From NCBI RefSeq assembly GCF_000383415.1, contig NZ_KB911256.1, positions 785,348 to 849,347 of the forward strand: DNA of 64,000 nucleotides. Direction: 5' to 3'. Positions 6,260-26,294 of this stretch are shown piece after piece. The position numbers and the translations under genes are program-made. Position 1 is the first letter of the stretch; every line of letters starts with the position of its first letter. This stretch comes from Hyphomicrobium zavarzinii ATCC 27496. Its GTDB lineage: Bacteria > Pseudomonadota > Alphaproteobacteria > Rhizobiales > Hyphomicrobiaceae. A model generated the notes under the pieces. It saw only the letters and a list, made by a program, of their open reading frames with translations. It made no database searches and was not told the origin of the DNA.

Positions 6260-8905
6260 ATGCCTCATCGTCTATTCGCATTTGTTGCGGCCTTTGCAGT
6301 TTTTCTATCGCTTGGACACAGCGCGCACGCGACGCAGAGAATAGCGCTGGTCATTGGGAATTCGAACTACAAGGTGGGGCCACTCGCCAATCCGATCAAA
6401 GATGCGGAAGCCATTGCCCGCACCTTCGAATCCTTGGGATTCGATAAGGTCCTTCTCAGAAAGGATGTGGGTATCCAGGGCATCAGAAGTGCGTTGGGAG
6501 AGATCTCGCGGCTTGCTGTTGGGGCCGATGTCGCGGTCATCTATTTTGCCGGACATGGCACTGAGTATTCCGGCAAGAACTATTTGATCCCGGTCGATGC
6601 CCGGCTTGATCGCAGCTCGGATCTCGATCTCGAGGCCGTGAGCCTCGACACGGTCCTCAATCAGCTCGACGGCGTTCGGAAGCTCAAACTTGTTATCCTC
6701 GACGCCTGCCGGAACAACGTGTTTCCGATGGCCGGCGGGCGCAGAAGCATCCCGCGCGGCCTGGCGCGCGTTGAACCTGACGGCAATACGCTCGTCGCCT
6801 ACGCCGCCAAGGAGGGGATGACGGCGGACGACGGCAGCGGGCTTGAGCACAGCCCTTACACGAAGGCCTTGTTGCGCCACCTTTCTGCGTCGAGCACGGA
6901 GATCCGGCTGGTCTTCGGCCGCGTCCGCGATGACGTGATGGAGCTCACGCACGGTCAGCAGATTCCGCATGTTTACGGGTCTCTAGGCGGAGGAGAGATT
7001 TACCTCGGTGGAGCGGGCGCTACGCCACCTGCGGCGGCTGCGCCGGCAGTAACCCCGCCTGTATCACAGGCGCCGAGCCCGCAGCGGCCCGCCGTGAGCA
7101 AACCCCAGCCCAAGACCGCAATGCTGGAGACCGCGCCGCTGCCGAAGGACGATCGGTCCGTCGCGCCGATAGCCGCCAATCATCCCGATGCGAATTGGTC
7201 GATGCCGACGGGCGACTACGCCAACTTGCGTTACAGCTCGCTCGATCAGATCAATGCAAACAACGTGAGCACGCTGCGTCAGGTCTGGAGCTTTTCCACC
7301 GGTGTGCTCCGGGGTCATCAAGGAAACCCTCTGGCCATTGACGGCACTCTCTACGTCCATACTCCCTTCCCCAACTACGTTTATGCGTTGGACATGGATG
7401 AGGGGGAGGTGAAGTGGGTGTACCAGCCGCGCATGGATCCTTCTACGATCCCGGTCATGTGCTGCGATACCGTCAATCGGGGAGTCGCATATGAAGACGG
7501 CGTGCTGTTTCTCTACCAAAGCGACACCACGCTGACCGCGCTCGATGCGAAAACCGGCAAGGAGCTCTGGAAAGCGGTCAATGGCGACCCGAAACGGGGA
7601 CAGACGGGAACCAACGCGCCGATTGTCATCAACGGGAAGGTGATCGTCGGCCTATCTGGCAGCGAATTCGGCGTGCGTGGCCATATCACCGCCTACGCCG
7701 CCGACACGGGAAAACGACTGTGGCGCGCGCACGCGACAGGGCCGGACGGCGATATCCTTTTCGATCCGCAAAAGACCATGTCTCTGGGAAAGCCGGTGGG
7801 GCGCGACTCCTCGCTGAAGACGTGGACCGGCGATCAATGGAAGATTGGCGGCGGAACGGCCTGGGGCTGGTTCTCCTATGATCCGGACCTCGACCTGCTC
7901 TACTACGGCACCGCCAATCCCTCGACGTGGAACGCCGTGCAGAGGGCGGGACCGGATGGCAAGGCGATCGACCAGAAGTGGACGATGTCGATCATCGCGC
8001 GCAATCCGACTACCGGCATGGCCGCGTGGGCCTATCAGATGACGCCGTTCGACGAATGGAGCTACGACGGCGTCAACGAGATGATCCTTGCAGACATCGA
8101 CGTCGAGGGCCGGGAGCGCAAGGTCCTTGTTCATTTCGACAAGAACGGCATCGCCTACACGCTCGATCGCGCGACCGGCGAGCCGCTCGTCGCTGCCAAG
8201 TTTCTCGAAGCGACAAACTGGACCAGCGGTGTCAGTCTGGATCGCGCGAGCCGCAACTATGGGCGTCCCGCGGTCGTCGCCTCGCGCTCACCGTTTCTCA
8301 ACGGCTCCGATATCAATACGAAGGACATCTGTCCTTCCAGCTCAGGCGCTAAGAACCAGGGACCTGCGGCCTATTCCAAGCTGACTGGCCTCTTCTATGT
8401 GCCAGTCAATGCCCTGTGTATGGACTATGAGCCGTTTCGGGTCACCTACACGCCCGGCCAGCCGTACGTGGGAGCGGTGCTGTCGATGTTCCCTCCGCAG
8501 GGACAGACCACGCGTGGCAGTTTCATCGCGTGGGATGCGGCTCAGGGGCGCGCTGTTTGGGAGGCCCCGGAGGATTTTCCGGTGTGGTCCGGGGCGCTGG
8601 CAACCGCCGGCTCCATCGTTTGCTTCGGAACCGTTGACGGATACTTGAAATGCCTCGACCAGAAGGACGGGAAAGCGCTCTTCAAGTACAAGACGCCGTC
8701 CGGCATTGTGGGCAACGTCATGACCTACGCGCACAAAGGCAAGCAGTACCTGGCGGTGCTGTCGGGGCTTGGCGGCTGGGTGGGGATCGGCATGGCCGCG
8801 GGGCTGACGAATCCGACCGACGGCCTTGGGATGGTCGGGGCGACAGCGGATCTGCAGAGGCGCACAAGCCTCGGGGGTGCGCTCGTGGTGTTTGCGCTGC
8901 CTTGA
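6260..8905 (+). CDS. Exported caspase-like protease fused to a XoxF-like quinoprotein domain
   Basis: An 881-residue product. The start at ATG 6260 follows GGGGA and opens a clean signal peptide (1-24); the longer frame from 6086 is not supported. Residues 25-250 form a C14 caspase-like domain with catalytic His99 (YFAGHG) and Cys150 (LDACRNN). A proline/alanine linker spans about 252-300. Residues 310-880 are a PQQ alcohol dehydrogenase propeller like methanol dehydrogenase, with the vicinal disulfide Cys401-Cys402 (CCDTVNRG), metal ligands Glu469 and Asn553, and the lanthanide-type Asp603. The catalytic Asp two residues before Asp603 is replaced by Ser601 (EWSYDG). The propeller may therefore be a sensor or binding module and not a dehydrogenase. 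It would act in the periplasm. Confidence 0.88.
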   Translation: MPHRLFAFVAAFAVFLSLGHSAHATQRIALVIGNSNYKVGPLANPIKDAEAIARTFESLGFDKVLLRKDVGIQGIRSALGEISRLAVGADVAVIYFAGHGTEYSGKNYLIPVDARLDRSSDLDLEAVSLDTVLNQLDGVRKLKLVILDACRNNVFPMAGGRRSIPRGLARVEPDGNTLVAYAAKEGMTADDGSGLEHSPYTKALLRHLSASSTEIRLVFGRVRDDVMELTHGQQIPHVYGSLGGGEIYLGGAGATPPAAAAPAVTPPVSQAPSPQRPAVSKPQPKTAMLETAPLPKDDRSVAPIAANHPDANWSMPTGDYANLRYSSLDQINANNVSTLRQVWSFSTGVLRGHQGNPLAIDGTLYVHTPFPNYVYALDMDEGEVKWVYQPRMDPSTIPVMCCDTVNRGVAYEDGVLFLYQSDTTLTALDAKTGKELWKAVNGDPKRGQTGTNAPIVINGKVIVGLSGSEFGVRGHITAYAADTGKRLWRAHATGPDGDILFDPQKTMSLGKPVGRDSSLKTWTGDQWKIGGGTAWGWFSYDPDLDLLYYGTANPSTWNAVQRAGPDGKAIDQKWTMSIIARNPTTGMAAWAYQMTPFDEWSYDGVNEMILADIDVEGRERKVLVHFDKNGIAYTLDRATGEPLVAAKFLEATNWTSGVSLDRASRNYGRPAVVASRSPFLNGSDINTKDICPSSSGAKNQGPAAYSKLTGLFYVPVNALCMDYEPFRVTYTPGQPYVGAVLSMFPPQGQTTRGSFIAWDAAQGRAVWEAPEDFPVWSGALATAGSIVCFGTVDGYLKCLDQKDGKALFKYKTPSGIVGNVMTYAHKGKQYLAVLSGLGGWVGIGMAAGLTNPTDGLGMVGATADLQRRTSLGGALVVFALP

Positions 8906-9089
8906 CCGTAGAACGTGGTGCGAGGTGGCGCGCGGGATTTCCTGCGAAGAGACAAGCATCCAACGAGCGGGCGCGGCTTCGGCCGGACGCCGTCGTGTTT
9001 TCATCGGGCATGAACCGGCTCTGTGGCGCGGACGAGGGGTGGGAGACATTGTTGCCCCCCTTTCGGCCTGTTGATACCCTTACTCGTCA

Positions 9090-9716
9090 ATGGTTATGGA
9101 GGACTGGGTGCCCCGCGGCCCTGCTAAAAGTGCCGACAGTAGCTCATTCGCGTTCTCGGACGCGGCTTCCGACATCGCGTTTCTCGAGCGGATCCGATGG
9201 TTTCGGATGTCGTTGATTGAACGCATCTGCACCTCCAGCACAAGTCAGTCCGACAAGGTTCTGGTCCATTTGCGCCAGGAGCCGACTTCGCAGATGGCCG
9301 AGTTCTTCTATCTGCTGGATTGCCAGCAGATCCGCACGGTCGGCCAATTGCAGAGGCTTGCCGAATTGCACAACGCCTATGTTGTCGCCGTGACCAAGGA
9401 CAAGAGCAAGATGCGCCGGCTTGGGCTGACGTCCGACCGCTTGCTCGACGCGATGTTCACCTCCGACACGATGCCGAGGCTCTTGCAGAACTGGCAGGAG
9501 GAGCCGGGGGCAATCGATCAATCAAACCTCGCACGCTTTCTCGGAGTCGTCATGTCGCCCGAGACGTGCCGGAAGACCGTGGTTGCCTGCGCCGAGGCCG
9601 GCTTCCTCGTCCGGAGAAAATCGCCCTATGGGACCTTCATCGTAAAATCCGCCGGGGATCTCGAGAGAGTATTTGGATCGACACTTCGTGAGGCTAGATC
9701 GAGGAACTCTAAATGA
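9090..9716 (+). CDS. Winged-helix (MarR-like) DNA-binding regulator
   Basis: A 208-residue cytosolic protein with no signal peptide. The C-terminal part, about 140-198, reads as a winged helix: LARFLGVVMSPETCRKTVVAC (helix-turn-helix) followed by AGFLVRRKSPYGTFIVKSAG (wing). The middle is helical with no recognised sensor domain. No strong ribosome site is seen before 9090, and an internal ATG at 9096 or 9208 could be the real start. The stop overlaps the start of the next gene by four bases (ATGA), so the two are translationally coupled. Its place inside the caspase block suggests it controls some of these genes. The 184 bases before it hold nothing recognisable. Confidence 0.6.
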   Translation: MVMEDWVPRGPAKSADSSSFAFSDAASDIAFLERIRWFRMSLIERICTSSTSQSDKVLVHLRQEPTSQMAEFFYLLDCQQIRTVGQLQRLAELHNAYVVAVTKDKSKMRRLGLTSDRLLDAMFTSDTMPRLLQNWQEEPGAIDQSNLARFLGVVMSPETCRKTVVACAEAGFLVRRKSPYGTFIVKSAGDLERVFGSTLREARSRNSK

Positions 9717-10390
9717 AGACGTGGCCGCTCCTGCCGCTGACGCTCGCGTCGTCTGTTCTCCTTTGTTGCCCTCTTGCGACGGCTCCCGGCTTCGCGGACG
9801 TGATCGCGCGGGCTAGCCCGCAGTTCACGGACGCCGAGTTGGCGATCATTGCTCGTAACGAGTCGCTGCGGCGGACCCGGGAGAGCGATCCTTGGGTGGT
9901 GAAGGGGTTTCTGGAGCGGTTGGGGAAGCTTGACGAAGAAGCCGGCGGGGCCGAGGGAAAGGGCCAGGATCCCGACATCGATCGATACCTTCGGTCGTCT
10001 CCTGAAGCGGCCCACGATCTTCTGCAGATTATCATGCAGGCGGGAAGCGCGGGGCAGGCTGATACGTTGAAGTCCCAGGCAAATGCGCAAGGCTCATCCG
10101 ACGAGCAAAGCCTTTCTCTTCCTGCCGGAACTCACATCGAGATCGTGTCCTATGACAGCCAAAGCGGGACGTTTGCGGTTTCCTCGGTGGCCTTTCCGGG
10201 AGAAGGCCTCACCTACGCGACCGCGCGCGCACTGCGAGATGCGATCGCGGCGGCCGAATTTCAGGACCTCTTGGCGAAACCTGATCAACTCGTGACGAGA
10301 CGCTTTACCCTGTCCAAGGACCTTGCCGCCGTCTTCTCGGACGCGATTGAAGAAGCCCATGATCGGCAGGAGCAACCGTCTGCCCCTTGA
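9713..10390 (+). CDS. Exported protein of unknown function
   Basis: A 225-residue product with a signal peptide (about 1-28, cut near GFADV). The mature chain is hydrophilic, with a Ser/Gln-rich middle (about 105-135) and a C-terminal segment of alternating strands and helices (about 138-215). No catalytic motif or known domain was recognised. It is coupled to the winged-helix gene through the ATGA overlap, which suggests that the regulator and this protein act together. It converges with the dipeptidase gene only 15 bases downstream. Confidence 0.6.
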   Translation: MKTWPLLPLTLASSVLLCCPLATAPGFADVIARASPQFTDAELAIIARNESLRRTRESDPWVVKGFLERLGKLDEEAGGAEGKGQDPDIDRYLRSSPEAAHDLLQIIMQAGSAGQADTLKSQANAQGSSDEQSLSLPAGTHIEIVSYDSQSGTFAVSSVAFPGEGLTYATARALRDAIAAAEFQDLLAKPDQLVTRRFTLSKDLAAVFSDAIEEAHDRQEQPSAP

Positions 10391-10405: not shown

Positions 10406-11269
10406 TTAGGGATGAGGGCTCTCCGGCTGGCTTGGCTCCGATGTTTCCATTTGCGGGGGCTCGGAGGTGCGCTCCCCCTTTGCGCTCGACGGGGACGCTT
10501 CCGGCCGGCGACGCACGGGGATGTCGAAAGACCGGGAACTCGCGCCCTGAAACGTGAAGTGCCACCACTCACGGGAATAGTTCGAGAAGCCCTGAGCCTC
10601 CATGGCCGATTTGAGCAAGGCGCGCGCGGCCTTCTGCTGAGAGGTCAGGCCCGAAGCGTGGGTGTGGCTCTTGCTGTCGAAGCAGTCGTAGCTCGTTCCC
10701 ATGTCGACGCTGCCGTCGGAGCCTCTTTTGGAGACCTCTGCCGTGCAGGCCTCGAGGCTCGTTTCCTGTTGTGTTTCGGATGGAGGCAGAGACGGCGCGG
10801 CCGCGAGGGGCACGATCGTGAGATCGACGGCGCGGCCGGTCGAGTGCATGGAGCGCGAGGCGATATATCCCGCCTCGATGAGGGAGCGCTTGGCGACTTT
10901 GGGCATGTATGTCTTCGTGAGTGGCGTGCTCTTCCCGTCGGACACCCAGCGAACGAATGATTTGACGGCTTCCACCGGCCGATAGCAGTCGTAGACTCTC
11001 AAGGCATATTTCTGCGCTGCAAGCGCGGCCTGCACGCGTTTCAGAGCCGCGGCCGCGCCACGCGTGAGAATGCATTCGGGCGCCTCATAGCCCGGGACCC
11101 GCGCGCCGGTGAAGTTGCGCGGGCCTGCATAGCGCATATCCTGCTCGATCGACGCATCGATCTTGCCGAGGTAAACGAGGGGAGAAGGGAGGTCTCGCGC
11201 GTCCGCGGCTACGTCGCCAGCGTGGCCGAGGACGATGGCGGCGCCGAGAGCGAGCACGAGCCGCTGCAT
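10406..11269 (-). CDS. D-alanyl-D-alanine dipeptidase-like peptidase (M15, VanX type)
   Basis: A 287-residue exported zinc peptidase. The ATG at 11269 has AGGAG upstream and gives a signal peptide of about 22 residues. The VanX-type motif SxHxxGxAxD is seen as SMHSTGRAVD with zinc ligands His142 and Asp149. The catalytic Glu234 and third ligand His237 are in EWWHF, and the YDCYRP segment supplies the family Arg97. Known members hydrolyse D-Ala-D-Ala in wall recycling or glycopeptide resistance. Vancomycin resistance is unlikely here because there is no vanHA. The C-terminus adds a Ser/Pro/Glu-rich tail of about 40 residues. It follows the caspase gene at 12788 by 37 bases on the same strand, so the two are probably one operon. 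Confidence 0.85.
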   Translation of the reverse strand: MQRLVLALGAAIVLGHAGDVAADARDLPSPLVYLGKIDASIEQDMRYAGPRNFTGARVPGYEAPECILTRGAAAALKRVQAALAAQKYALRVYDCYRPVEAVKSFVRWVSDGKSTPLTKTYMPKVAKRSLIEAGYIASRSMHSTGRAVDLTIVPLAAAPSLPPSETQQETSLEACTAEVSKRGSDGSVDMGTSYDCFDSKSHTHASGLTSQQKAARALLKSAMEAQGFSNYSREWWHFTFQGASSRSFDIPVRRRPEASPSSAKGERTSEPPQMETSEPSQPESPHP

Positions 11270-11306
11270 GATCCTTGCTTCTCCTCGGAGCGGATTATGA
11301 CGGGAT

Positions 11307-12788
11307 TTAGTTGCCAATCAGCCTGATCTCGTTGATCGCGAGGTCCTGGTATTTCCAGCCCGCATAGACGGAGGTTACCTTGAGCTGCATCCATGCGGCG
11401 TCTCCGCTGGATGCAACATCGATCACCTGCTGTTCGGCATGATCATCGAGCCGGAACGGGATGCGTTGTCCGTTCGAGAATACGAGCTCGCCGGATTGGA
11501 CGCGGCCGTTCTTGTGGAAGATGTCGCTGTTCTTGCCGTAGCCGTTCTTGATCAGCACCTGACGGATCTTGCGCCGGCTCTGGAAATCGAACACCACCCA
11601 TTGCCCCGTGCCGTCTCCGCGCACGCCCTCCACCCAGGCGGTCCTATCGTTGCCGTCCAGCATATTCACCGGAAGGTAGGAGTTTCCGTATTCGGGGCTC
11701 CGAACTGAGCTTGCACACAGCGTGAAGTCTCCCTGGCTGTGGCAGCGTTCCTTCGCGGAGCGTGGCCTTTCCGCGGACGGCGAGGCGGGGGCGGGTGGGG
11801 CCAGCATCGCCTGCTGCTCCCGCGTTTCTCGCTGACGCTTGAGGGCTTCGATCTCCGCTCGCATTGTCTCGACCTTGGCGGCTTCTGCTGCAAGGCGCTC
11901 GGCATCGCCGCGTCTTCTTGCTTCGTCGGCCAATTGACGCTCAAGGCGACGTTTTTCAGCTTCTGACGCCTCTAGCCTATTGAGGACGTCCTGAGAGGGA
12001 GCAAGGGAGGCGTGTGTACCGCCTTCGCTCATGGAGAGAGAGATCGCCGATCCGCCGAGGGTGCCGTAGATATGGGGGCGCTGAGTATCGGAAGTCGCCG
12101 AGATGACGTCGTCGCGAATACGGCCGAGCATCAAGCGAATGTCGATGTCCGGCGTCGCGATGTGCTTGAGCAGCGCTGCGGTGAACGGACTGTTCCTTTG
12201 GCCCGTGCCGTCATCGGCGGTGGTGCCTTCCTTGGCGGCATAAGCAACGAGCGTATTGTCATCCGGCTCGACGCGGGCGAGGCCCCGCTCGACGCTTCGC
12301 TTTCCTCCCGCCGGACGGAACGGATTGTTGCGGCAGGCGTCGAGAATGACCAGCTTGAGCCGCGTTGCACCCTCGAGCTGCTGGAGCACCGTATCGAGAT
12401 TGATGGCTTCGAGCTCGACGTCGCTTGCGCGTTCGGGGTTTGCGTCGACTGGAATCAGATAATTGCGTCCATGCAACTCCAGCCCGTGGCCGGCAAAAAA
12501 CACGACAACGATATCGGCGCCGACGGCGGCACGCCCTATCTCGCGCAACGTTGCGCGCATGCCGTCTCCCGTAAGGTCCTGTCTGAGAATGACCTCGTCG
12601 AATTTTATGTCTTGCAGCGCAGACGCTACGGCGCGCGCATCATTCACCGGGTTTGCCAGCGGCGCGATTTTGTAGGCCGAGTTCCCAATAACCAACGCCA
12701 CCCGTTTCCCCGTTCCGGCGGAAACAGGCGCGCCTGCGAATGCACAAGCGCATAGCAATGAAAACACAGCGCAGATCCGTCTGTGCAT
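11307..12788 (-). CDS. Exported caspase-like protein with coiled coil and discoidin-like domain
   Basis: A 493-residue product with a strong GGGAGGAG site before its ATG. A signal peptide covers about 1-24. The C14 domain spans about 27-250, with His101 (FFAGHG) and Cys152 (LDACRNNPF). A charged coiled coil runs from about 266 to 327. A short Pro/Ala linker leads to a discoidin or NADase-type glycan-binding-like domain (about 349-492, with NMLDGNDRTAWVEG and VLIKNGY). The C-terminal domain probably anchors the protease to a glycan or wall component. It shares the RNNxF subfamily signature with the caspase-quinoprotein at 6260 and lies upstream of the M15 dipeptidase gene. Confidence 0.87.
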   Translation of the reverse strand: MHRRICAVFSLLCACAFAGAPVSAGTGKRVALVIGNSAYKIAPLANPVNDARAVASALQDIKFDEVILRQDLTGDGMRATLREIGRAAVGADIVVVFFAGHGLELHGRNYLIPVDANPERASDVELEAINLDTVLQQLEGATRLKLVILDACRNNPFRPAGGKRSVERGLARVEPDDNTLVAYAAKEGTTADDGTGQRNSPFTAALLKHIATPDIDIRLMLGRIRDDVISATSDTQRPHIYGTLGGSAISLSMSEGGTHASLAPSQDVLNRLEASEAEKRRLERQLADEARRRGDAERLAAEAAKVETMRAEIEALKRQRETREQQAMLAPPAPASPSAERPRSAKERCHSQGDFTLCASSVRSPEYGNSYLPVNMLDGNDRTAWVEGVRGDGTGQWVVFDFQSRRKIRQVLIKNGYGKNSDIFHKNGRVQSGELVFSNGQRIPFRLDDHAEQQVIDVASSGDAAWMQLKVTSVYAGWKYQDLAINEIRLIGN

Positions 12789-13277
12789 TCACTCCTCCCA
12801 CGACCGGGGATTCTGAAAGAATAGTATGTCTGCAGACGACCTCGTGCGCAAGCCCGTCAAAGTGATTATCATGCGAAAACGCCAGTTGTTTTGGACGTCC
12901 TCCTGAGCGGCGTTGTTTCGGCGAGGTGGTGGCCGCTAAGGGGCTTCCCAAAGCCTGGGAGCCCTTCCTCTGGACGGTCTCTTTGCTTTGGAGGATGTCT
13001 AGATGCCGTCCCGTTTGCCGGGTCGTTTTCCGGCAGGACCTGCACGGCACGACGGCCGGCTCTGCTTGGAGAGAAAAGCGGGCGGACGATTATTTGATGA
13101 TTTGAGAGACGCAATTCAGAGACGCGGTGAGATGTAACTAACTGCACTCTTCTTCGGCCGTCAGAGTAGCGGCGGCTTGTTTGAAATCTTTTGAGAGACG
13201 GGTCCGTCACGCTTTGCCGGGCACGGATAAACCGCACGTGTTATCTCGGCAATGCCAAGGGCATAGGGGCGAGGCAA
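12789..13277 (+). other. Intergenic region between divergent caspase genes
   Basis: This 489-base gap separates two divergently transcribed caspase genes and must hold both promoters. No coding frame with a ribosome site, no terminator and no RNA fold was recognised. An 11-base direct repeat, TTTGAGAGACG, occurs at 13101-13111 and 13190-13200, 89 bases apart, and could be a regulator site or chance. Confidence 0.4.
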
Positions 13278-17309: not shown

Positions 17310-17329
17310 AAAGATTGACGAGAGCAGCG

Positions 17330-17623: not shown

Positions 17624-17825
17624 TCTCTGTGTCCAAGAACAGATGCGCAATCTTCATCCGCAATCGCGCTAGTCCGATCCATCCGCTCTCTCCCGGTCGC
17701 TGGGGGGCTTCCAATCGGATGGGAAGGGGGCAAGCCGCTCGGGCCATTTTGCCGATCCGCTCCGTCAGCCATGTTGGGGACAGGCGACCTCGATCCATCG
17801 AGGCGAACAGCGGAAGGAGCGGCCC

Positions 17826-18359
17826 ATGGCCCGGATCAGATTTCCTCTCTCTATCGTGACCTCTTTCATTTTCGCGGCAACCCTGTTGGCGCCTGCCGCT
17901 CAGGCCGCGTCTCTCCGCGACCTTGCTGTGGCGAACGCGGAGCACGGCGCCAGGATCAGCGTGTCGGCGCTCAACGGGAGGCGGATGGAGGAGGGTGAGA
18001 CAGCTCGTTTCAGGATTGAGAGCAACAAAACCGGCTTCGTGCACCTCTACGTCAGGAACGCGTCCGGCCGGATGCAGCTCTGGATGGAAAACGTTCCCAT
18101 CCGTGCGGGCCGGAAGCTTCAATATCCGATGGACCCGTCGATCAAGATCCGTGCGATCGCGCCGTTCGGGGACGACGAAATCGTAGCGGTGCTGACGCGG
18201 TTCCAGGTTGATGGCTTCATCGGCCGGAGAATGACGTCCTCTCCCACGGAACTTGACCTGGATGTGCGGGAATTCGAGGACGAACTCGCGACGATCTTAA
18301 CTGCCGATAGCAAAAATCCGTGGGTATGGGCGCGCACGGTTGTGACGGTACGCGAGTAA
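17826..18359 (+). CDS. Exported DUF4384 domain protein
   Basis: A 177-residue product with a strong GGAAGGAG site and a signal peptide ending at AQAA (about 27). The mature part is a stand-alone DUF4384-like beta-sandwich: an EGETARFRIES segment, then FVHLYVRNASGRMQLWMEN and VPIRAG..LQYPMD. This fold is found at the C-termini of other proteins in this block and is common beside caspase-like and kinase domains, where it may be a binding module. It has no catalytic residues. It lies 28 bases upstream of the trypsin gene. Confidence 0.75.
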   Translation: MARIRFPLSIVTSFIFAATLLAPAAQAASLRDLAVANAEHGARISVSALNGRRMEEGETARFRIESNKTGFVHLYVRNASGRMQLWMENVPIRAGRKLQYPMDPSIKIRAIAPFGDDEIVAVLTRFQVDGFIGRRMTSSPTELDLDVREFEDELATILTADSKNPWVWARTVVTVRE

Positions 18360-18387
18360 AGCTAGCATACTATCAGACGTCTGAGAC

Positions 18388-20082
18388 ATGTTCGGGATCG
18401 GTGGCATGTTTTATTCATTTCTCTGGTGGGGCGTTCTTCTCAGCTTGTTTGCCGCGCCAGCTTTCGCTGAGTCACACCCTAGCGCTTCCCAAACCCAAAT
18501 CGAGATGGCCCAGGCCGCCGACGAGGAGTTCATGGAGCCGGATGCCGGAGCGTCAGACGATGAAGGAGCGGATGCGGCGGTGCCGCACACCGGGGAGGCA
18601 GACGACGCTTCTGACGAGGGCGCGAAAGAGGACTTTGATCAGTCTCTCGAAGCACATGGCGAGAGCGACGAGGAGCGGTCATCCGATGTGTGTGGAGCAG
18701 TCAAAAGCGGCGGCGATCGTGATGCGAAGATCATCGGCGGGTGTAAGTCCCGCCCCGGTAGCTGGCCGAGCTACGTCTACCTGAACATACAAAAAGGACA
18801 GTCGGAGTTTCTGTGCGGCGGGATTGTGATCGATAGCAACTGGGTGGTCACGGCGGCGCATTGCATTGCGGATGCGCCCTCTCCCGCTGAGAACTGCGCG
18901 CCGGGGCCGGTGACGGACTACGCGGCCACTTCGGTTACGGTCTTCGAAGGTACGGACACACGATACGGCGCTTCGAAGAAAAAGCTGGGACGGCGCCTCG
19001 CTGTCGACCGGGTGGTCCGCCATCCCGCGTACAAGGGATTGTGCGCTTCGCCAAAGGGGCATCACGACATTGCCCTGCTGCGGCTGAAAACGGTTGCCAA
19101 ATCCCCCACGGGATTGCTCGACAAGAAGGATGGGGGTGGTCTCAGCTTTACCAAGCCTGGCGCCTTCGCGACGGTGATTGGCTTTGGTGACACCGGAGAA
19201 GGGATCTCGAACCATCTTCGTCAGGTCGACGTTCCAATTTTCAGCGAACGCGACTGCCGCAAGGCGTACTCCGACGCGGGCGTGGATTATGCGCTCCAGG
19301 TTTGCGCTGGGTTCGACGCGGGCGGGAAGGACAGTTGCGGCGGCGACAGCGGCGGTCCCCTCTACATCCGCGATCCGTTGGGGCAGCAGGTTCTGATCGG
19401 GATCGTGAGCTGGGGCGCAGGGTGTGCCGAGGCAGGAAAGCCTGGGATCTACACGTCAGTCGCCGGGCATGAGGGATGGATTCGGCAATACGTGCCCGGC
19501 GCAGTATTCGCCTTGCCTTCCTCAAACGCGCCGTCCGGTGTCGATGCGTCGCTCGGTCAATTCGTAGGTCCGCCACCGGCCGACAGTCCGAGCGCCAATG
19601 GTGAGGTGACGGTCAGTCTGACCAACGGAGCCCGCGTCAAGATCGGCGAAGCGATCTCGATCCGCGTCACGAGCTCGCTGACGGGTGCGCTGGTCGTGCT
19701 CAACCAGGACCAGGCGGGTAAGGTCACGCAGTTATTCCCCAACAGCTTCAGCGCCTCCACGCAGGCAGGCAAAGCCCGCGAGATCATCCACGCCGGAGAG
19801 ACCATCGAGATTCCGGGCAGCGATCAGAGCTTCATGCTGAAGGCCTCGCCGCCGGCGGCCCGCAACACCATCATCGCGATCGTGGCGCCTCCCGATGCGA
19901 AGATTGGGGATCTGGTCGATCCATCGAAGGCGCTGCAGGAGATTGCCGATCCCGTGGCGCTGCTTACCGAAATCACGCAGCGGAGCAATGAGGCTGACCG
20001 TTCGCGCGGCGTCGACGTCGTGGGAGCGGCCAAGGTCGGGCGTGCAGTAGGGAAACGGCCGTTCGATATCGTAACCAATTAG
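18388..20082 (+). CDS. Exported trypsin-like serine protease (S1) with C-terminal DUF4384
   Basis: A 564-residue product (an internal ATG at 18406 is an alternative start). A signal peptide (about 1-27) is followed by a strongly acidic propeptide (about 43-99). The zymogen activation site is Lys114-Ile115 (AK/IIGG). The catalytic triad is His158 (TAAHC), Asp227 (HHDIAL) and Ser321 (GDSGGP). Asp315, six residues before the Ser, is the S1-pocket Asp of trypsin, so cleavage after Arg or Lys is expected. Cysteines around positions 102, 143, 159, 290, 306, 317 and 346 fit the usual disulfides. A DUF4384 domain fills about 395-520. Such trypsinogen-like enzymes are uncommon in alphaproteobacteria. 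It lies close to the serpin at 20931. Confidence 0.92.
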   Translation: MFGIGGMFYSFLWWGVLLSLFAAPAFAESHPSASQTQIEMAQAADEEFMEPDAGASDDEGADAAVPHTGEADDASDEGAKEDFDQSLEAHGESDEERSSDVCGAVKSGGDRDAKIIGGCKSRPGSWPSYVYLNIQKGQSEFLCGGIVIDSNWVVTAAHCIADAPSPAENCAPGPVTDYAATSVTVFEGTDTRYGASKKKLGRRLAVDRVVRHPAYKGLCASPKGHHDIALLRLKTVAKSPTGLLDKKDGGGLSFTKPGAFATVIGFGDTGEGISNHLRQVDVPIFSERDCRKAYSDAGVDYALQVCAGFDAGGKDSCGGDSGGPLYIRDPLGQQVLIGIVSWGAGCAEAGKPGIYTSVAGHEGWIRQYVPGAVFALPSSNAPSGVDASLGQFVGPPPADSPSANGEVTVSLTNGARVKIGEAISIRVTSSLTGALVVLNQDQAGKVTQLFPNSFSASTQAGKAREIIHAGETIEIPGSDQSFMLKASPPAARNTIIAIVAPPDAKIGDLVDPSKALQEIADPVALLTEITQRSNEADRSRGVDVVGAAKVGRAVGKRPFDIVTN

Positions 20083-20118
20083 CAGAACGTCAACACGAGT
20101 GGGCGAAAGGAACGTACG

Positions 20119-20859
20119 ATGACACTCCATGGAGCTTTGAGGTTTGCTGTCGCGCTTTGTGGCGCTCTGGCCTTGACCTCTCAACTGTCTTGGGCGGGCG
20201 CGCAAAGAGACGCGCCGGTCACTCTGGCCGAGAACGCCGCTCCCGCTGAGGGCGCAGCCGCAACTGCCGAGGCTGACGGCGAGGCCAGCACGGAGGAGAT
20301 CAATGAACAGAAGAGCGCAAGCAAGGAGCTCGAGCGCGATCTCGCCGCGGAGCTGAAGCCGATCTACGATCTTGGTGACGAGAACGGCAAGGGGCCGAAG
20401 ATCGGCATCGACGCGTGGGTGAACAAGAAGAGTCTGACCTACGCCGTCGGCGATACGCTGTCGATTTCCGTGAAGCCGCAAAAAGATGCCTACATCACCA
20501 TTCTCAATATCGGCTCGAGCGGCTCGACGACTGTCCTCTATCCAAATCATTTCCAGAAAGACGCTCGTGTGAAGGCCGGGTCCGTGGTCCGCATACCCGG
20601 GCGGAAGGAAAAGTGGCAGATCACGGTCGGCGGCCCTTCGGGAGTCGATCTGATCAAGGTGATCGCTTCAAAAAAGCCGCTCACGCTCAAGGAGTTGCAG
20701 ACCCTCGCGGCGACCGACGAGAAGAACCCGCTGATTTCCATCGGACGCTCGAGCGAGGAGACCGCCAAGGATCTGAGCGCTGAACTCAAGCCGGACGGTG
20801 GAGATGAGAAGGACCCTGCGTTCGGCGTGCGGAACCTACTTGTTCGGGTCAAGAAGTAG
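20119..20859 (+). CDS. Exported DUF4384 domain protein
   Basis: A 246-residue product, ATG 20119, with AAAGGA upstream. A signal peptide (about 1-27) is followed by an Ala/Glu-rich low-complexity segment (about 35-80). A DUF4384-like beta domain (about 90-190) contains KSLTYAVGDTLSISVKP, DAYITILNIGSSGSTTVLYPN and a lysine-rich end. The C-terminal 50 residues are charged. It has no catalytic motif. It lies between the trypsin and serpin genes, 36 bases after the first. Confidence 0.75.
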   Translation: MTLHGALRFAVALCGALALTSQLSWAGAQRDAPVTLAENAAPAEGAAATAEADGEASTEEINEQKSASKELERDLAAELKPIYDLGDENGKGPKIGIDAWVNKKSLTYAVGDTLSISVKPQKDAYITILNIGSSGSTTVLYPNHFQKDARVKAGSVVRIPGRKEKWQITVGGPSGVDLIKVIASKKPLTLKELQTLAATDEKNPLISIGRSSEETAKDLSAELKPDGGDEKDPAFGVRNLLVRVKK

Positions 20860-20930
20860 GGGCTTCCGTGCGGGTGCCGGCCCAGACAGGCGAGCAATGA
20901 CGGCGGTGGCTTCCAAGTGAAGACGATCCC

Positions 20931-22151
20931 ATGACATCTGTCCAAGGAGAAGCCCGGCCCTCGCGCCGGACGGTCATTGCAGGACTGGGCGCGCTGACCC
21001 TCTGGCCGGACGCATTGCTCGCGCAAGCGCCGGCAAAGGGAGCGAACGGTTCGGTCGTCAACAGGCTCGGCGTGTCGGTGCTGGACCGCATCGCTCGCAG
21101 GCACAAAGGGCAAAACGTCGTTATCGCCCCTCACTGCCTTCATTCGGCGCTGGTGGGCCTTGCGGCGGGCGGAGACGACAGCCTGCAGAAGGCCCTTTCC
21201 GGCACCATTCTGACGGGACCCAAAGCAACGGTCGAAAGTGTGCTCGCGGATTGTGCGATTCTCGGTAGCGAGCTCGCGAAATCGTCACGGGAGGGCGTCG
21301 AACTGAAGACCGCTGTCGGCGTCTGGGTCCACCAGGACGTCACCCCGGAGGCGGAGTTCAAGGACCGGCTGAATGCGGCGTTTGCCGCCGAGGTCGCGGG
21401 CGTGGACTTCCGTGGCTCGGATGCGCTGGCGAAAATCAACGGATGGATTGGCGAGAAGACCGAGGGCCAGATCCCGCAGATGATCGACCGGCTGGATCCG
21501 TTGACCGAGTTCGTTCTGGCATCGGCCCTCTATTTCAAGGGGCGGTGGGCCCAGTCGTTCGATCCGGCGCGGACGGCGCCTTTGCCCTTCCGCTTGCGAG
21601 CGGGAGAGATCAAGCAGACCCCGATGATGGCCGCCGAGATCGATGGTGGGATCTGGGAGGACCGCAAGCTCCGCGCGATCTCCATTCCTTTTGGAACCGC
21701 CGAGGCCCCCCGCTTCCAGTTCGTGATTGTGCAGTCAAAGGATAGGAGCCGGCCCTTCTCGACACGGCAATGGGATCTCGGCGCCGTGCTTTCGAAGGCG
21801 AGCTTCACGCCGGCCCGGATCGATGTGACGATCCCCAAGTTCGCGGTGAAGTTTGAAAGCGACATGCGCGAGGCGCTTGAGGCGAGTGGACTTCGGGCGC
21901 TGGTCTCCAGCAGTTCCAAGTACACTCGCATATCTTCGAATGCGGTGCGCGCGCCTGTCATCAATCATGCGGTCAAGATCGAGGTTGACGAGAGGGGCGC
22001 GACGGCCGCCGCTGCCACAACGGTCACGGCAACACGCTCTATGACAGAGGTCGTGCGCGTTGTCGTGGACAGCCCATTCGCGTTCAGCATCTCCCATCGC
22101 GGCCTCAACCTAGATCTCGTCCAAGGGCTCATTGAGGATCCGGCGTCATGA
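20931..22151 (+). CDS. Serpin (serine/cysteine protease inhibitor)
   Basis: A 406-residue serpin with a twin-arginine export signal (SRRTVIAG at 11-18). Family landmarks are INGWIGEKTEGQI (169-181), SALYFKGRW (198-206) and the breach-region IPKFAVKFE. The reactive-centre hinge EVDERGATAAAATTV starts at 351; the small residues after Gly356 are typical of inhibitory serpins. Counting Gly356 as P15 gives P1 Ser370 and P1' Met371; one residue less gives Arg369-Ser370, which would match trypsin-like targets. Serpins inhibit serine proteases and some inhibit caspases. Both kinds are encoded here. The stop overlaps the next start by four bases. Confidence 0.93.
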   Translation: MTSVQGEARPSRRTVIAGLGALTLWPDALLAQAPAKGANGSVVNRLGVSVLDRIARRHKGQNVVIAPHCLHSALVGLAAGGDDSLQKALSGTILTGPKATVESVLADCAILGSELAKSSREGVELKTAVGVWVHQDVTPEAEFKDRLNAAFAAEVAGVDFRGSDALAKINGWIGEKTEGQIPQMIDRLDPLTEFVLASALYFKGRWAQSFDPARTAPLPFRLRAGEIKQTPMMAAEIDGGIWEDRKLRAISIPFGTAEAPRFQFVIVQSKDRSRPFSTRQWDLGAVLSKASFTPARIDVTIPKFAVKFESDMREALEASGLRALVSSSSKYTRISSNAVRAPVINHAVKIEVDERGATAAAATTVTATRSMTEVVRVVVDSPFAFSISHRGLNLDLVQGLIEDPAS

Positions 22152-23146
22152 TCAAGCTGACAGACGACCACCTTTGGCCGAGCCTGCGTGTCATGATCCA
22201 GAAATTTCGGATAGCGCTGTCTCACCTGGTTGGTGCGCTGGCCCTTGTGCCGCTGATCGCCGCGCCGGTCGTGGCGGAAGGCGCAAACTGCCTTGACCTC
22301 GAAAGCAAAATGCGCGCCGCGCGCAGGGCCGGAGATCAGACGGAGGTTTCGGCGCTGGCATCAAGGCTCCTCTCAGGCAACACACCCTGCACGGCGTTGG
22401 AGCGCGAGTTGATTCTGAGACAGGCTGCGCTCGCTTTTTATGATCAGGCTATCGCGCCCTCGCTCAGCGACGAGCGGAGGGCGAGCTTGTTGCGGGACGG
22501 TCTCCGCTTGGCTGAGCCGTGGAAAATGTCGGCCATGCTCGGGGATCTAGAAATGGCGCAAAAGGGCTATCTCCGCGCTGCCGAGCTCTACAGGAACGCG
22601 CTGGATGACATGAGAGACACGGTGGTCAATCCAGAAGCGCCGTCTCTGGAGGTCCAGCAGGCCATATTCAAGAAAGCGGAGCAGGCGGCGCTGCTCGCAC
22701 CCCGGCATGTCGCCCAGGTCAACATGCGCAGCGGAAAGCCAGGTGGAATTGCCGGTGGCGATGTACGCGGGTTCGTGCCGCAAAAGGTCGCTCATCCCAT
22801 TCAGTTCGTTTATCGGGAAGCGACATTTACGGAAGCCGGCGCGCAGGCCGTGAAGGAGATGCTCGAGCTCCTGCGAGAGACTTCTCCACCACATGTCACG
22901 CTGACGGGGCATACGGATAGCCGTGGAGACGACGCGTTCAACAAGGCGTTGTCGATCCGCAGGGCGAAAGCGGTTGCTGACTATCTGCGTTCGAACGGGT
23001 ACAGGGGCAAAATCCGCGTGGAAGGACGCGGAGAAGACGAGCCCTACGTCGGCGACGGCTCGGTCGAGCTTTCCGAGGACGAAATCCATCAGCAGAACCG
23101 CCGCGTGGAGCTCGAGGTGCCGAATGATCAAGCAGCACAAAAGTGA
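22148..23146 (+). CDS. OmpA-like peptidoglycan-binding protein
   Basis: A 332-residue product whose ATG overlaps the serpin stop (ATGA); an internal ATG at 22193 would place a signal peptide at the very start and is a good alternative. A helical, TPR-like middle (about 50-195) is followed by an OmpA C-terminal domain (about 225-325) with the peptidoglycan-binding signature TGHTDSRGDDAFNKALSIRRA. It probably tethers partners to the wall. It is coupled to the serpin and lies three bases before the next caspase gene, so it appears to be part of the protease operon. Confidence 0.85.
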   Translation: MIKLTDDHLWPSLRVMIQKFRIALSHLVGALALVPLIAAPVVAEGANCLDLESKMRAARRAGDQTEVSALASRLLSGNTPCTALERELILRQAALAFYDQAIAPSLSDERRASLLRDGLRLAEPWKMSAMLGDLEMAQKGYLRAAELYRNALDDMRDTVVNPEAPSLEVQQAIFKKAEQAALLAPRHVAQVNMRSGKPGGIAGGDVRGFVPQKVAHPIQFVYREATFTEAGAQAVKEMLELLRETSPPHVTLTGHTDSRGDDAFNKALSIRRAKAVADYLRSNGYRGKIRVEGRGEDEPYVGDGSVELSEDEIHQQNRRVELEVPNDQAAQK

Positions 23147-23149
23147 GGC

Positions 23150-24745
23150 ATGAATCCATTGCTAAGACGGCTCATTGCAGCGGCTGTGGTGTGCACGCTT
23201 TGGGCCGTGGTGCCCGATGTGGCATCGGCGCGAGTTCACGCGCTTGCCATAGGCATCAACGACTACAAAACAATCAAGAAGCTGGAGGGCGCCGTTGCCG
23301 ATGCCCAGGACGTCGCCCAGGCGCTTCGGTCCGTAGGGGCCACCGTGACACTGCTGACGGACAAGGAGGCCACGCGCAAGCGGATCGAGCGCGCTTGGCG
23401 TGAGATTGTGGGAGGTGCGGCGGCCGGCGACGTCGTCGTTTTTTTCTACGCGGGGCATGGAGGTCAGGAGCCGGATCGCGAGCCTTTCGACGAAGAGGAT
23501 GGCAAGGACGAAGCGTTCCTCCTGGCGGGCTTCAGCACGAAAAAGGGCGATCCAGGTTTTTCAGAGCGCCTCGTAGACGACGAGATCCACGGCTGGCTGA
23601 AAGAGGCGGTGAGCAAGGGGTTCAAGGTCGTCTTTGTTGCCGATTCCTGTCACTCCGGCGGAGCGGGCCGTGCGACCTTCGGCGGTGGGCAGGTACGCTT
23701 CGTGCCGCCTTATGGGGAAGAGGAAGGTGCATCGATCGCGCAAGCGGTCAACGCATCGCAAAAACAAGATGCGGTCGAGAGGGGGCGCGATCGCGACATC
23801 CCGGGTGTCTTTCAGTTTCTGGCCGTCAGCGAAAAGAACCAATCTCCTGAAGTGCGCATTGACGGCGAAAGGCGCGGTGCCTTGAGCTACGCTTTCAGCC
23901 GTGCAATCGAGGGTCAGGCAGATGCAGACCGGGATGGGATGCTGTCGGGTCTCGAGCTGCAAACGTTCCTCATCCCTCAAGTGGCCTTGTGGTCGGAAGG
24001 ACGGCAGATTCCGGATTTCGTTCCGCTCCGGCAGTCGGGAGATGGTTTGCTTCCGGCGGGAAAGGCGACGGCCACGGGCGCGGGACTGCACGCTCTTCCG
24101 CCGTTGTCCCTCAACATCGAGTCCGGTGGGGCTACGGCCTCTGCGAACCTGCGTTTGGACAACGCGACGATTGTCGCGGCGCAGAGGGACGCTGATCTCA
24201 TCTGGAATGAAGCCGACGGAACCGTTCGCAGCAGCACGGGCGACATTGTCGCCGAAGGCGTGCGGTTTGAGGAACTTTCCCAGATTGTCGAGAAGTGGCG
24301 TGTTCTCGGGATGCTGAAGCGAGTGTCCGCCGGGCATGCGATTGAAGTGAACCTGTCGGGAGGAACCAACAAGACCTACCGGACGGGGGAGGAGTTCAGG
24401 CTCGAGAGTGAGACATTGCCCTCGGGCAGCTACGTCACGGTCTTCGACCTCGCACCGGACGGGTCGGTCGCGTTTCTCCATCCCGACAAGACGCGACGAA
24501 GCCTCGCGGACAGCGAGGCGTCGCGATGGCCTGACGACATCCCTTTCTTCATTCCGAGGATTCGCGTGGAGGCTCCCTACGGCGCCGACCACATTGTGGT
24601 GCTCGCAAGCGATAAGCCGATCGATGGATTGTACAAGGCTGCTTCTGCCGTGTCGTCTGCAACCCTTACGGGTCTGCTGGCGCAGGTGTTGGACGGCGCG
24701 ACGTTCAGGATTGGGGTAGTGGGGATATACACGCGTGCAGAATAG
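23150..24745 (+). CDS. Exported caspase-like protein with DUF4384 domain (first copy)
   Basis: A 531-residue product. A signal peptide (about 1-27) is followed by a C14 domain (about 28-310) with His103 (FYAGHGG) and Cys167 (ADSCHSGG). Residues 258-269 (DADRDGMLSGLE) match all positions of a Ca-binding EF-hand loop. The C-terminal DUF4384 domain covers about 395-525 (EEFRLESETLPSGSY, SVAFLHPD). The DSCHSG signature places it with the caspase at 24735 and apart from the RNN type at 6260 and 11307. The next gene starts inside its last 11 bases, so translation is coupled. Confidence 0.88.
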   Translation: MNPLLRRLIAAAVVCTLWAVVPDVASARVHALAIGINDYKTIKKLEGAVADAQDVAQALRSVGATVTLLTDKEATRKRIERAWREIVGGAAAGDVVVFFYAGHGGQEPDREPFDEEDGKDEAFLLAGFSTKKGDPGFSERLVDDEIHGWLKEAVSKGFKVVFVADSCHSGGAGRATFGGGQVRFVPPYGEEEGASIAQAVNASQKQDAVERGRDRDIPGVFQFLAVSEKNQSPEVRIDGERRGALSYAFSRAIEGQADADRDGMLSGLELQTFLIPQVALWSEGRQIPDFVPLRQSGDGLLPAGKATATGAGLHALPPLSLNIESGGATASANLRLDNATIVAAQRDADLIWNEADGTVRSSTGDIVAEGVRFEELSQIVEKWRVLGMLKRVSAGHAIEVNLSGGTNKTYRTGEEFRLESETLPSGSYVTVFDLAPDGSVAFLHPDKTRRSLADSEASRWPDDIPFFIPRIRVEAPYGADHIVVLASDKPIDGLYKAASAVSSATLTGLLAQVLDGATFRIGVVGIYTRAE

Positions 24746-26294
24746 CTCCTCGAAGCACCCTAGACACATCGGCCGGTGTGTGTCCGGATTGGTCTTGGCG
24801 GCCGCTCTTGTGCTCGGAGGCGCCACGGCGGGGCGATGCGAGGATCGAGCGCTCATCATCGGCGTCAACAAATACGCTTATCTCGGAGAGAAATCGCAGC
24901 TAAGCGGCGCTGTGAACGACGCCCGCGTCATGGCCGGCCTGGCGAAAACAAAATGGGGCTTCAAGCCGCAGCAGATAAAAATGCTGCTGGATGCCGATGC
25001 GACGGCACAGGCAATTCGAAGTGCGCTTCGCGATTGGATCGTAGCCGATACGTCACCTGGGGACCGGGCGCTCATTTACTTCTCGGGGCACGGTTACTTT
25101 GTCGAGGATACCAGTGGGGACGAGGCTGACGGCCGGGACGAGGTGATCGTTCCCCACGACGGAAAACTGCTCGCATCCGGGTACGAGAATTTCGTGATTG
25201 ACGATGAAATCGAACGGGTTCTCCGCGAGATGGCCGATCGGCAGGTCATGTTACTTTCAGATAGCTGTCATTCCGGGACCATCGAGCGCTCGTTGGTCAG
25301 CGAGGACGAGGCCACCGGCAGTGAGGGTATGGTCCGCTCTCCCACGTGGACAACCGAGGGTATGCGCGGCGGCCCGGACAAAGATCTCGCCGTTGCACTA
25401 AAAACGAGCGAGCAAGCCTACAAGAAGCTGCGCCAGGCGAATTCGTTCATCGAGGCGCGCGATGTCACGGTCACGGGGCGAGGATCGCTGCTGGTATGGA
25501 CCGCAGCCGCGGCCACGCAGCTCGCACAGGAGGATGCGTCCCTTGCGCCAGGCGCGAGACAAGGTGTTTTCACCCGGGCGTTCGTGGATGGCATCGGCGG
25601 AGCAGCCGACAGCAACGGCGACGGAAAGGTCACGGCATCGGAGGTCCTGACCTACGCCCGTGCCAAGGCCGAGAACTATTGCGCGAGCTTCGCGTGCAAG
25701 ACGGGCATGACGCCAACCTTTGAGCCCGGAGGGTCCGAGCTCGGCAGAGATATGTCCGTTTGGCCCGTCGGCGCGGCTGCGGGAGATGCGGGCCAGGCTC
25801 CCCTTGATCCCACCGATGTCATTCCGGTTCCGCCAGAAGGGTTTTCCGTGAAGCTCGCGATCGAGCCCGGATCGACTGTCAGGCTTGGGCAGTCCATCAA
25901 GCTGCGGATCGAAAGCTCGCGGCCCGGCACGCTGATCGTGCTCGACGCGCGTGACGACGGGAAGGTCTTCCAGCTCTTTCCGAGCGTTTGTACGCACAAG
26001 GAGCGCGCCATCCGCGCAAACGCTCCGCTGCTGATGCCTGACCCCTCTTATGGCTGCGTCTTCAAAGCCGATGAGGCCGGACAGGGAAAAATCATTGCCA
26101 TCGTAGCAGAAGACAAGGTGCCTCTCGACACCCTGCTCGAGGGGACGCGTGCGAAGGGCATCGATGTGATTGGAAGGCCGTCGGAATATCTCGGAAGTAT
26201 TGCAGAGGCCCTGTTGGCCGTATGGACCGGAGATCCGCGCAACCGTCCGGTGAAGTGGGGTCTCGCGACGGCCTCCTATGAGATTGTGAAGTAA
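24735..26294 (+). CDS. Exported caspase-like protein with DUF4384 domain (second copy)
   Basis: A 519-residue product with a GTG start overlapping the previous gene. The N-terminus has a basic region and a hydrophobic signal segment (about 15-35). The C14 domain (about 37-340) shows His119 (IYFSGHG) and Cys178 (SDSCHSG). Residues 292-303 (DSNGDGKVTASE) are a perfect EF-hand loop. The DUF4384 domain spans about 370-515 (GSTVRLGQSIKLRIES, VFQLFPS). It is a diverged sister of the gene at 23150, probably by tandem duplication. The 161 bases after it, before the metallophosphoesterase, hold nothing recognisable. Confidence 0.87.
   Translation: MQNSSSKHPRHIGRCVSGLVLAAALVLGGATAGRCEDRALIIGVNKYAYLGEKSQLSGAVNDARVMAGLAKTKWGFKPQQIKMLLDADATAQAIRSALRDWIVADTSPGDRALIYFSGHGYFVEDTSGDEADGRDEVIVPHDGKLLASGYENFVIDDEIERVLREMADRQVMLLSDSCHSGTIERSLVSEDEATGSEGMVRSPTWTTEGMRGGPDKDLAVALKTSEQAYKKLRQANSFIEARDVTVTGRGSLLVWTAAAATQLAQEDASLAPGARQGVFTRAFVDGIGGAADSNGDGKVTASEVLTYARAKAENYCASFACKTGMTPTFEPGGSELGRDMSVWPVGAAAGDAGQAPLDPTDVIPVPPEGFSVKLAIEPGSTVRLGQSIKLRIESSRPGTLIVLDARDDGKVFQLFPSVCTHKERAIRANAPLLMPDPSYGCVFKADEAGQGKIIAIVAEDKVPLDTLLEGTRAKGIDVIGRPSEYLGSIAEALLAVWTGDPRNRPVKWGLATASYEIVK

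Follow-up and report, generated by a model that had tools for sequence, protein, structure and literature searches.

We identified, in Hyphomicrobium zavarzinii ATCC 27496, a relative of root-nodule bacteria, a block of about 20 kb (positions 6260-26294 of a 64,000-nucleotide stretch of contig NZ_KB911256.1, hereafter the window) that encodes caspase-like proteins together with a trypsin, a serpin, DUF4384 proteins and an OmpA-like protein. With moderate confidence, we read its core as an exported envelope cassette in which a putative trypsin zymogen and caspases would be braked by a partner serpin, a reading drawn from sequence features and from the recurrence of the core genes as neighbours in other alphaproteobacteria. 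The cassette combines known protein families in a way not found in print; among the matches listed in our literature searches, mostly from non-subscription sources, no serpin-trypsin-caspase(-DUF4384) gene set was described.

The block, as set out in a preliminary description of the sequence, was confirmed. Pfam assigned families to 11 of its 13 genes, leaving the winged-helix protein and a small open reading frame, ORF225, without one (Table 1), and named the trypsin, serpin, DUF4384, OmpA-like and M15 dipeptidase-like proteins of that description; the intact His/Cys pair claimed for the five caspase-like genes was found in all five Peptidase_C14 proteins, in agreement with the p20 domain of orthocaspases. 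A genome-wide domain search placed five of the six Peptidase_C14 caspases and five of the six DUF4384 domains of the 4.65-Mb genome within these 20 kb, and their clustering is therefore not due to chance. The genes run on the plus strand from 6260 to 10390, on the minus strand from 10406 to 12788 and again on the plus strand from 13275 to 26294, which implies a minimum of three transcription units and rules out a single operon. The small gaps and overlaps said to tie most of the genes together thus hold for the tightest stretch, the seven genes at 17826-26294 (gaps of 28, 36, 71, -4, 3 and -11 between longest frames, none above 71), and not for the block as one unit. A promoter and terminator scan found 5 where shuffled sequences gave 2.7, and 19 where they gave 14.5. 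We also rejected the entire 20 kb as a conserved unit, since hidden Markov models (HMMs) built from the single window sequences of the M15, F5/8 and pyrroloquinoline quinone (PQQ) parts found no relatives in other loci. The core comprises the seven-gene run and the winged-helix gene (9090-9716), with the WD40-caspase gene (13275-17309) probably belonging to it as well.

Export was predicted with a simple home-made signal-peptide heuristic. It was positive for all five caspases, as had been claimed, as well as for both small DUF4384 proteins, the serpin, OmpA, the M15 peptidase and ORF225, and negative for the winged-helix protein and the trypsin, the latter having a hydrophobic N-terminus that ends in AFA and lacks a basic residue. 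The twin-arginine motif of the serpin was read directly in the sequence, and the OmpA start that bears the signal peptide probably lies at 22193, 45 bases downstream of the longest-frame start. Among the controls, the cytoplasmic-type gcvT and patatin products were negative and a membrane-type phosphoesterase (26456-28207) was positive; the heuristic is therefore blind to the difference between a signal peptide and a membrane helix. With the lenient rule that any in-frame Met before the domain may serve as a start, 41 of 42 serpin frames were positive.

To survey the genomic neighbourhood of the serpin, we searched 297 genomes of the order, 14 of which carry one serpin each. In eight of these genomes, representing seven of nine genera, the serpin lies within 8 kb of a DUF4384 domain, and all eight also have a trypsin, a caspase and OmpA there; a rough estimate that assumes independent genera and uses hand-counted clusters puts the chance of this linkage below 1e-12. 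The six unlinked serpin genomes are G308 and five of one genus, and the wider contexts of two of them, G308 and G073, contained no marker genes. In the wider class, eight of 385 genomes carry a serpin besides the window's, and the contexts of all nine serpin places were read. OmpA, caspase-DUF4384, trypsin-caspase-DUF4384 and serpin occur together in four of these eight genomes (two of five genera; three genomes of one genus and one of another), and the other four have no marker gene beside the serpin. Searching from DUF4384, at least one domain was found in 71 of the 297 order genomes, and 20 stretches chosen for several DUF4384 domains, hence not a random sample, contained a trypsin in 8 cases and a serpin in 6. 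OmpA accompanied caspase-DUF4384 in 14 of these 20, most of them lacking a serpin.

Searching from the winged-helix protein yielded 34 named loci, 26 of them in Rhizobium and the others in Prosthecomicrobium hirschii, Chthonobacter (2), Aureimonas, an uncultured alphaproteobacterium, Bosea, Bradyrhizobium uaiense and Methylocystis. Within the stretches examined, a trypsin was present in 32 and a serpin in 28 of the 34; since cluster loci had supplied the alignment used, this count and the DUF4384-based one are not independent. Of the serpin-less loci, L108 (10.5 kb) and L110 (9.1 kb) each make up an entire contig, L105 is located at the end of a contig, and L106 appears to be a shorter piece of the L044 contig, which has a serpin; L104 and L109 are full stretches in which no serpin was found. 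In 16 of the 26 Rhizobium loci a simple gene caller failed to call the serpin, and in 7 the regulator, and it also overlooked the L046/L139 trypsin; tblastn recovered serpin and regulator in all 26, and the counts were taken from tblastn. On plasmid pRL11 of R. johnstonii 3841 (RL_RS32750 to RL_RS32715), the run starts with the regulator (annotated as hypothetical), a small hypothetical gene, a DUF4384-OmpA fusion and a caspase-DUF4384 gene, followed by a trypsin-caspase-DUF4384 gene (RL_RS32725), the serpin (RL_RS32720) and a Ser/Thr kinase. This stretch was matched by 89 PLSDB plasmids (88 from Rhizobium, 1 from Neorhizobium), 84 of them over at least 80%.

Within its own genus, the block is accessory. 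The serpin was found in one of 40 relatives searched, the window's own genome, with seven other genus members lacking it, and other members of the genus carry 0 to 4 caspases each. In G001, of the same genus, the two flanking anchors (btuB-like gene and gcvT) are separated by about 32 kb, as they are in the window, and between them no called window gene matched at 1e-15 in the fetched stretches. Taken together, the joint occurrence of serpin, trypsin, caspase, DUF4384 and OmpA extends to several families of the order and to two further families elsewhere in the class. A single system, for which conserved synteny had been named as support, is supported for the core, found in 8 of 14 order and 4 of 8 class serpin genomes, and not for the whole 20 kb, the caspase-XoxF, M15 and caspase-F5/8 genes having no relatives detected in the other loci. 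The retention of these neighbours in distant relatives suggests that some bacterial serpins may have their own partner protease.

The window trypsin has the activation site K-IIGG, the complete triad H57/D102/S195 and the pocket residues D189/G216/G226, and in the PDB it matches plasma kallikrein and factor XI best. An Arg or Lys at the activation position (Lys in the window), Asp189 and Ser195 were present in 46 of 46 complete trypsin rows (42 of 43, one incomplete row being left out, plus 4 from the class), and these rows include genes that were retrieved twice and genes from loci that lack a serpin. In at least 15 genomes, a single open frame encodes both trypsin and DUF4384, namely in seven of the eight linked-serpin genomes and in eight serpin-free ones; in G307, a linked serpin genome, the trypsin carries no DUF4384. 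Serpin and trypsin-DUF4384 co-occur in 7 genomes against 0.7 expected, relatedness being ignored. A census of PF00089 had little discriminating value because all 297 genomes match, probably owing to DegP-type proteases.

The serpin domain of the window spans positions 3-370 of the 370-position profile, and its best PDB match is glia-derived nexin (E 1.3e-27). Aligned with six relatives, the protein shows an inhibitory-type hinge, ERGATAAAATT, with Gly at P15 and an Ala-rich P12-P9; the published hinge motif ExGTEAAAA is matched in part, GAT standing in place of GTE. An Arg at the loop site was present in all 40 linked serpin rows (37 genomes, three of them twice). In the 36 aligned rows it occupies the column of window Arg369 and is followed by Ser (35) or Gly (1); in the remaining four (L161-L164), read by eye, it is followed by Ala and in L161 stands one residue later by hinge count. 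The loop Arg and the Asp189 pocket of the trypsin have apparently matching specificities. Furthermore, six linked serpins are just 23-28% identical to the window serpin, which gives no support to recent spread of one serpin copy as the cause of the shared neighbours. A tree of 17 hand-chosen rows (10 linked, 7 unlinked) had fewer label changes than shuffles; it resolved no single linked clade, and the window and G307 rows form very long branches. As a separate observation on serpin genes, two sphingomonad plasmids, typed as conjugative and mobilizable, carry a serpin (L152:4797-7107 and L153:4773-7086) right after traA, DUF6118 and DUF1971 in the same order.

The winged-helix protein matched no Pfam or NCBIfam family. 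Its AlphaFold2 model (mean predicted local distance difference test score, pLDDT, 89.6) has a winged-helix arrangement at its end, and the top Foldseek matches were DNA-binding regulators, many of the MarR type, with none below E 0.0098; the earlier designation as a winged-helix regulator agrees with this model, and we consider the protein a likely regulator and a marker of the system. Homologues occur in 11 of the 297 order genomes and coincide with the serpin (14 genomes) in 8 (hypergeometric 3e-10, relatedness ignored); in G308, regulator and serpin lie on separate contigs. Relatives of ORF225 were found with tblastn in L044, L105, L106, L108 and L110, and by a weak HMM match in L050, whereas the single-sequence HMM of the M15 peptidase found no relative in other loci. 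DUF4384 is common to the trypsin, two caspases and the two small proteins, although in 23150-24745 it scored 26.4 bits, just below the cut-off of 27, and passed the cut-off in the genome-wide search. For the DUF4384 protein at 20119-20859 (AlphaFold2 mean pLDDT 77), a fold search gave weak Ig-like matches alone, none below E 0.0026.

DUF4384 also occurs in a further setting. Proteins with at least two CXXCH haem motifs and a C-terminal DUF4384 are encoded near caspase-DUF4384 genes in L053:9859-12156, L057:7754-10234, L059:9116-11902, L060:5776-7998 and L062:5309-8587, which belong to other families of the order and to loci picked non-randomly for DUF4384 clusters; OmpA is nearby in four of the five (not L060). 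Cytochrome c and caspase are there part of one exported gene set. Another CXXCH-DUF4384 protein, L051:4361-7441, lies about 10 kb from a caspase. In the window's genome, the sole DUF4384 match outside the block (contig 4, L134:256-2064) appears by eye to be of the cytochrome c-DUF4384 kind; it reads CPACR in place of CXXCH, and its haem site looks lost.

Three of the caspases carry additional domains that the preliminary description had missed: a PQQ/XoxF methanol-dehydrogenase-like domain in the first, an F5/8-type domain in the second and a WD40-like propeller in the third. The C-terminal domain of the second (11307-12788) matches the 'NAD glycohydrolase translocation' F5/8-type family PF25302 (E 2.4e-30). 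In the third (13275-17309), the ends gave sub-cut-off matches to peptidoglycan-binding and SH3 domains, and long proteins with a C-terminal caspase domain are also encoded in L044, L050 and L052. The PQQ part of the first is nearest to lanthanide-dependent XoxF (PDB 6oc5) and reads W-S-Y-D at a position where three of four PDB chains have W-D-[FY]-D and the fourth W-D-Y-A; two free XoxF-like genes retrieved from the window's genome both encode W-D-Y-D, the first Asp of which we take to be the catalytic base in XoxF. Since Ser replaces this conserved Asp, the domain may serve in binding or sensing rather than as an enzyme. Among the matches listed (three candidates scored in each of the 297 genomes), a full-length match to the caspase-XoxF fusion was found only in the window's genome, and the literature matches listed, again mostly non-subscription, contained no description of such a fusion. 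In trypsin-caspase fusion proteins elsewhere, 29 of 31 rows have a Gln/Cys dyad and the other 2 a His/Cys dyad; for the class fusions L161-L164, our own pattern for the His side gave no match.

Several observations weigh against a cassette with a serpin of its own. The serpin lies elsewhere in 10 of 22 serpin genomes, and for the serpins found on Sphingomonas, Sphingobium and Haloprofundus plasmids, no trypsin or caspase is annotated alongside. Most of the named regulator loci (26 of 34) come from Rhizobium, gene order differs between families, and the 4-base overlap of the longest trypsin and serpin frames in L162, L163 and L164 (one genus) rests on start-codon choice, the real serpin starts being possibly a few codons downstream. 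At least eight genomes with trypsin-DUF4384 are serpin-free (G024, G041, G048, G056, G062, G069, G176 and G251); the trypsin loci L045, L054/L104, L108 and L109 have no serpin within the stretch examined, and no serpin occurs anywhere in G101 or G176, from which L045 and L054 were taken. The serpin-trypsin-DUF4384 association is strong, yet the serpin is optional for the trypsin, and these serpin-free genomes weaken the notion of a 'dedicated' serpin. The loop residue is likewise not exclusive: the order's six unlinked serpins comprise two with Arg in the column, three in which Arg-Ser stands one residue before it and one with neither, and three unlinked class serpins (L159, L160 and L165) have, by eye, an Arg near the site, so that the loop Arg alone is no mark of linkage. 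Finally, the usual P15-P1 count from the hinge Gly puts the window Arg, which is followed by Ser, at P2. We provisionally take Arg369 as P1, on the assumption that the loop is shorter by one residue, which is the case in C1-inhibitor and antiplasmin, the register hinging on loop length; in a HMMER alignment to glia-derived nexin, the Arg-Ser pairs line up with one gap.

The envelope proteolytic network with its own inhibitor that had been proposed for the whole block is therefore retained in part: core synteny and the loop and activation residues fit it, whereas the left third has no counterpart detected in the other loci, order varies and many serpins lie elsewhere. For the core, we infer that the serpin would inhibit the trypsin or a caspase and that one protease would act on another. 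The trypsin zymogen would be cut after its Lys, either by itself or by a caspase-like partner; orthocaspases are reported to cleave after the basic residues Arg and Lys (PMC6426788). The active trypsin would then work in the periplasm or at the cell surface, in complexes held by DUF4384 and OmpA, until suicide inhibition by the serpin ended its activity, and the winged-helix protein would control transcription. The likely use would be a self-limiting burst of envelope proteolysis triggered by stress or attack, this purpose being the weakest step of the proposal.

The same proteins might instead act outward, with the proteases attacking competitors, predators or host material, the serpin shielding the cell from foreign trypsin-like proteases and co-location reflecting shared regulation. 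We consider this unlikely. The block proteins are predicted to be exported, host proteases are the targets of characterised bacterial serpins (PMC8233489, section 12), the Rhizobium copies reside on large plasmids of plant-associated strains, and trypsin-DUF4384 proteins occur without a serpin; on the other hand, the serpin lies by the trypsin in all 12 cassette genomes, mostly directly adjoining, which fits a partner pair, and carriers beyond Rhizobium include Prosthecomicrobium, Chthonobacter and metagenome-assembled genomes.

Ordinary maintenance appears improbable: OmpA, the M15 peptidase and the proteases would then serve turnover of cell-wall and envelope proteins and be clustered by accident. 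The presence of both OmpA and an M15 peptidase in the block, and the mostly serpin-free pairing of OmpA with caspase-DUF4384 described above, would suit such a role, but the M15 peptidase has no detected relative in the other loci and serpin, trypsin and DUF4384 recur together far above chance. A role in phage defence or cell death, in which infection frees the proteases, the cell dies and the serpin is the antidote, likewise seems improbable. It would accord with the uneven, accessory occurrence of the block, which was not found between the G001 anchors and whose serpin is present in 1 of 40 relatives, the window's own genome, and with matches of the PADLOC 'caspase' model to four of the five window caspases (E 1.8e-6 to 6.5e-24); these matches, however, are confined to the caspase domain, nearly all products are predicted to be exported, and Pfam found no NTPase, nucleotide-sensor or nuclease domain among the block proteins.

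Among the closest described systems is an alphaproteobacterial QC pseudo-orthocaspase clade with an N-terminal trypsin and a C-terminal DUF4384 (PMC6426788, seen in part). The trypsin-caspase-DUF4384 proteins of Rhizobium and Chthonobacter, mostly Gln/Cys, fit this clade; the window contains the same three domains, but its trypsin-DUF4384 and caspase-DUF4384 proteins are separate and its caspases are His/Cys, and the portion of the source consulted mentions no serpin, OmpA or operon for the fusions. Prokaryotic serpins such as miropin, siropins and thermopin (PMC8233489) resemble the window serpin in family, inhibitory-type hinge and export signal; they have host-protease targets or no stated home target, whereas the window serpin is encoded in linkage with a trypsin zymogen and with caspases. 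NTP-dependent conflict systems (PMC7159879, seen in part) also unite trypsin and caspase peptidases in one system type. The window proteins differ in being predicted to be exported, and Pfam found no STAND, vWA, MoxR or GTPase domain, the core of those systems, in the 13 block proteins (two being without a family); 'serpin' and 'DUF4384' are absent from the main text of PMC7159879. A gene set of serpin, trypsin, caspases and DUF4384 was not described in the parts consulted of PMC6426788, PMC7475262, PMC7159879, PMC8233489 and PMC10896300.

Around the block, a TraB/PrgY/GumN family protein is encoded at 149-1222, a few kb upstream, and a cobalamin riboswitch (5683-5908) lies upstream of the btuB-like TonB gene (3531-5540). 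Just past the block, the metallophosphoesterase at 26456-28207 scored weakly against the model of an anti-phage phosphoesterase (53 bits, cut-off 420) and had no match in six of seven other genus genomes; a glycine riboswitch (37048-37145) lies upstream of gcvT.

Table 1 Genes of the block in window coordinates
Feature	Position	Strand	Evidence
Caspase-like + XoxF-type PQQ dehydrogenase fusion, predicted exported	6260-8905 (longer frame from 6086)	+	Peptidase_C14 E 1e-33; TIGR03075 661 bits; PDB 6oc5 E 2.3e-250
Winged-helix protein, likely regulator, no predicted signal peptide	9090-9716	+	AlphaFold2 model; weak Foldseek matches
ORF225, small predicted exported protein, no family	9713-10390	+	Longest frame shares 4 bases with regulator gene
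M15 D-Ala-D-Ala dipeptidase-like, predicted exported	10406-11317	-	PF01427 E 3.5e-33
Caspase-like + F5/8-type (NADase_transloc) domain, predicted exported	11307-12788	-	PF00656 E 6.2e-35; PF25302; His/Cys dyad
WD40-like propeller + caspase domain, predicted exported	13275-17309 (longer frame from 13191)	+	Peptidase_C14 E 1.9e-14
DUF4384 protein, predicted exported	17826-18359	+	PF14326 E 5.7e-8
Trypsin (S1A) putative zymogen + C-terminal DUF4384	18388-20082	+	Pfam trypsin E 2.1e-42
DUF4384 protein, predicted exported	20119-20859	+	Pfam E 3.7e-24
Serpin, twin-arginine signal, loop GATAAAATTVTATR-S	20931-22151	+	PF00079 E 5.5e-63
OmpA-like protein, predicted exported, N-terminal region conserved	22148-23146	+	Pfam; recurrent neighbour
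Caspase-like + C-terminal DUF4384, predicted exported	23150-24745	+	Peptidase_C14 E 2.1e-20
Caspase-like + C-terminal DUF4384, predicted exported	24735-26294	+	Peptidase_C14 E 6.9e-22

Animal serpins control blood clotting, and serpin-controlled serine protease cascades in animals include coagulation, complement and the insect Toll pathway. The window shares with them an exported trypsin-type zymogen, as predicted here, a basic activation site and a serpin with a loop Arg, as well as the best PDB matches (plasma kallikrein/factor XI and glia-derived nexin), the nearest chain reflecting which structures have been solved. It differs in adding caspase-like proteases, DUF4384 and OmpA, and the basic activation site is what would point to sequential activation here. 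It is conceivable, though doubtful, that the cassette is a bacterial envelope counterpart of the clotting and complement cascades, with mutual activation of a trypsin zymogen and caspases at basic sites, a DUF4384/OmpA scaffold, a partner serpin as off-switch and sensor domains feeding in signals, the inputs being the XoxF-like pseudo-enzyme in the window and the Ser/Thr kinase in Rhizobium. If so, some bacterial serpins would be retained to hold the cell's own cascades in check. The cassette gives bacterial caspase-like proteins a defined setting of predicted exported partners and makes the home target of bacterial serpins directly testable, also on plasmids of genetically tractable Rhizobium.

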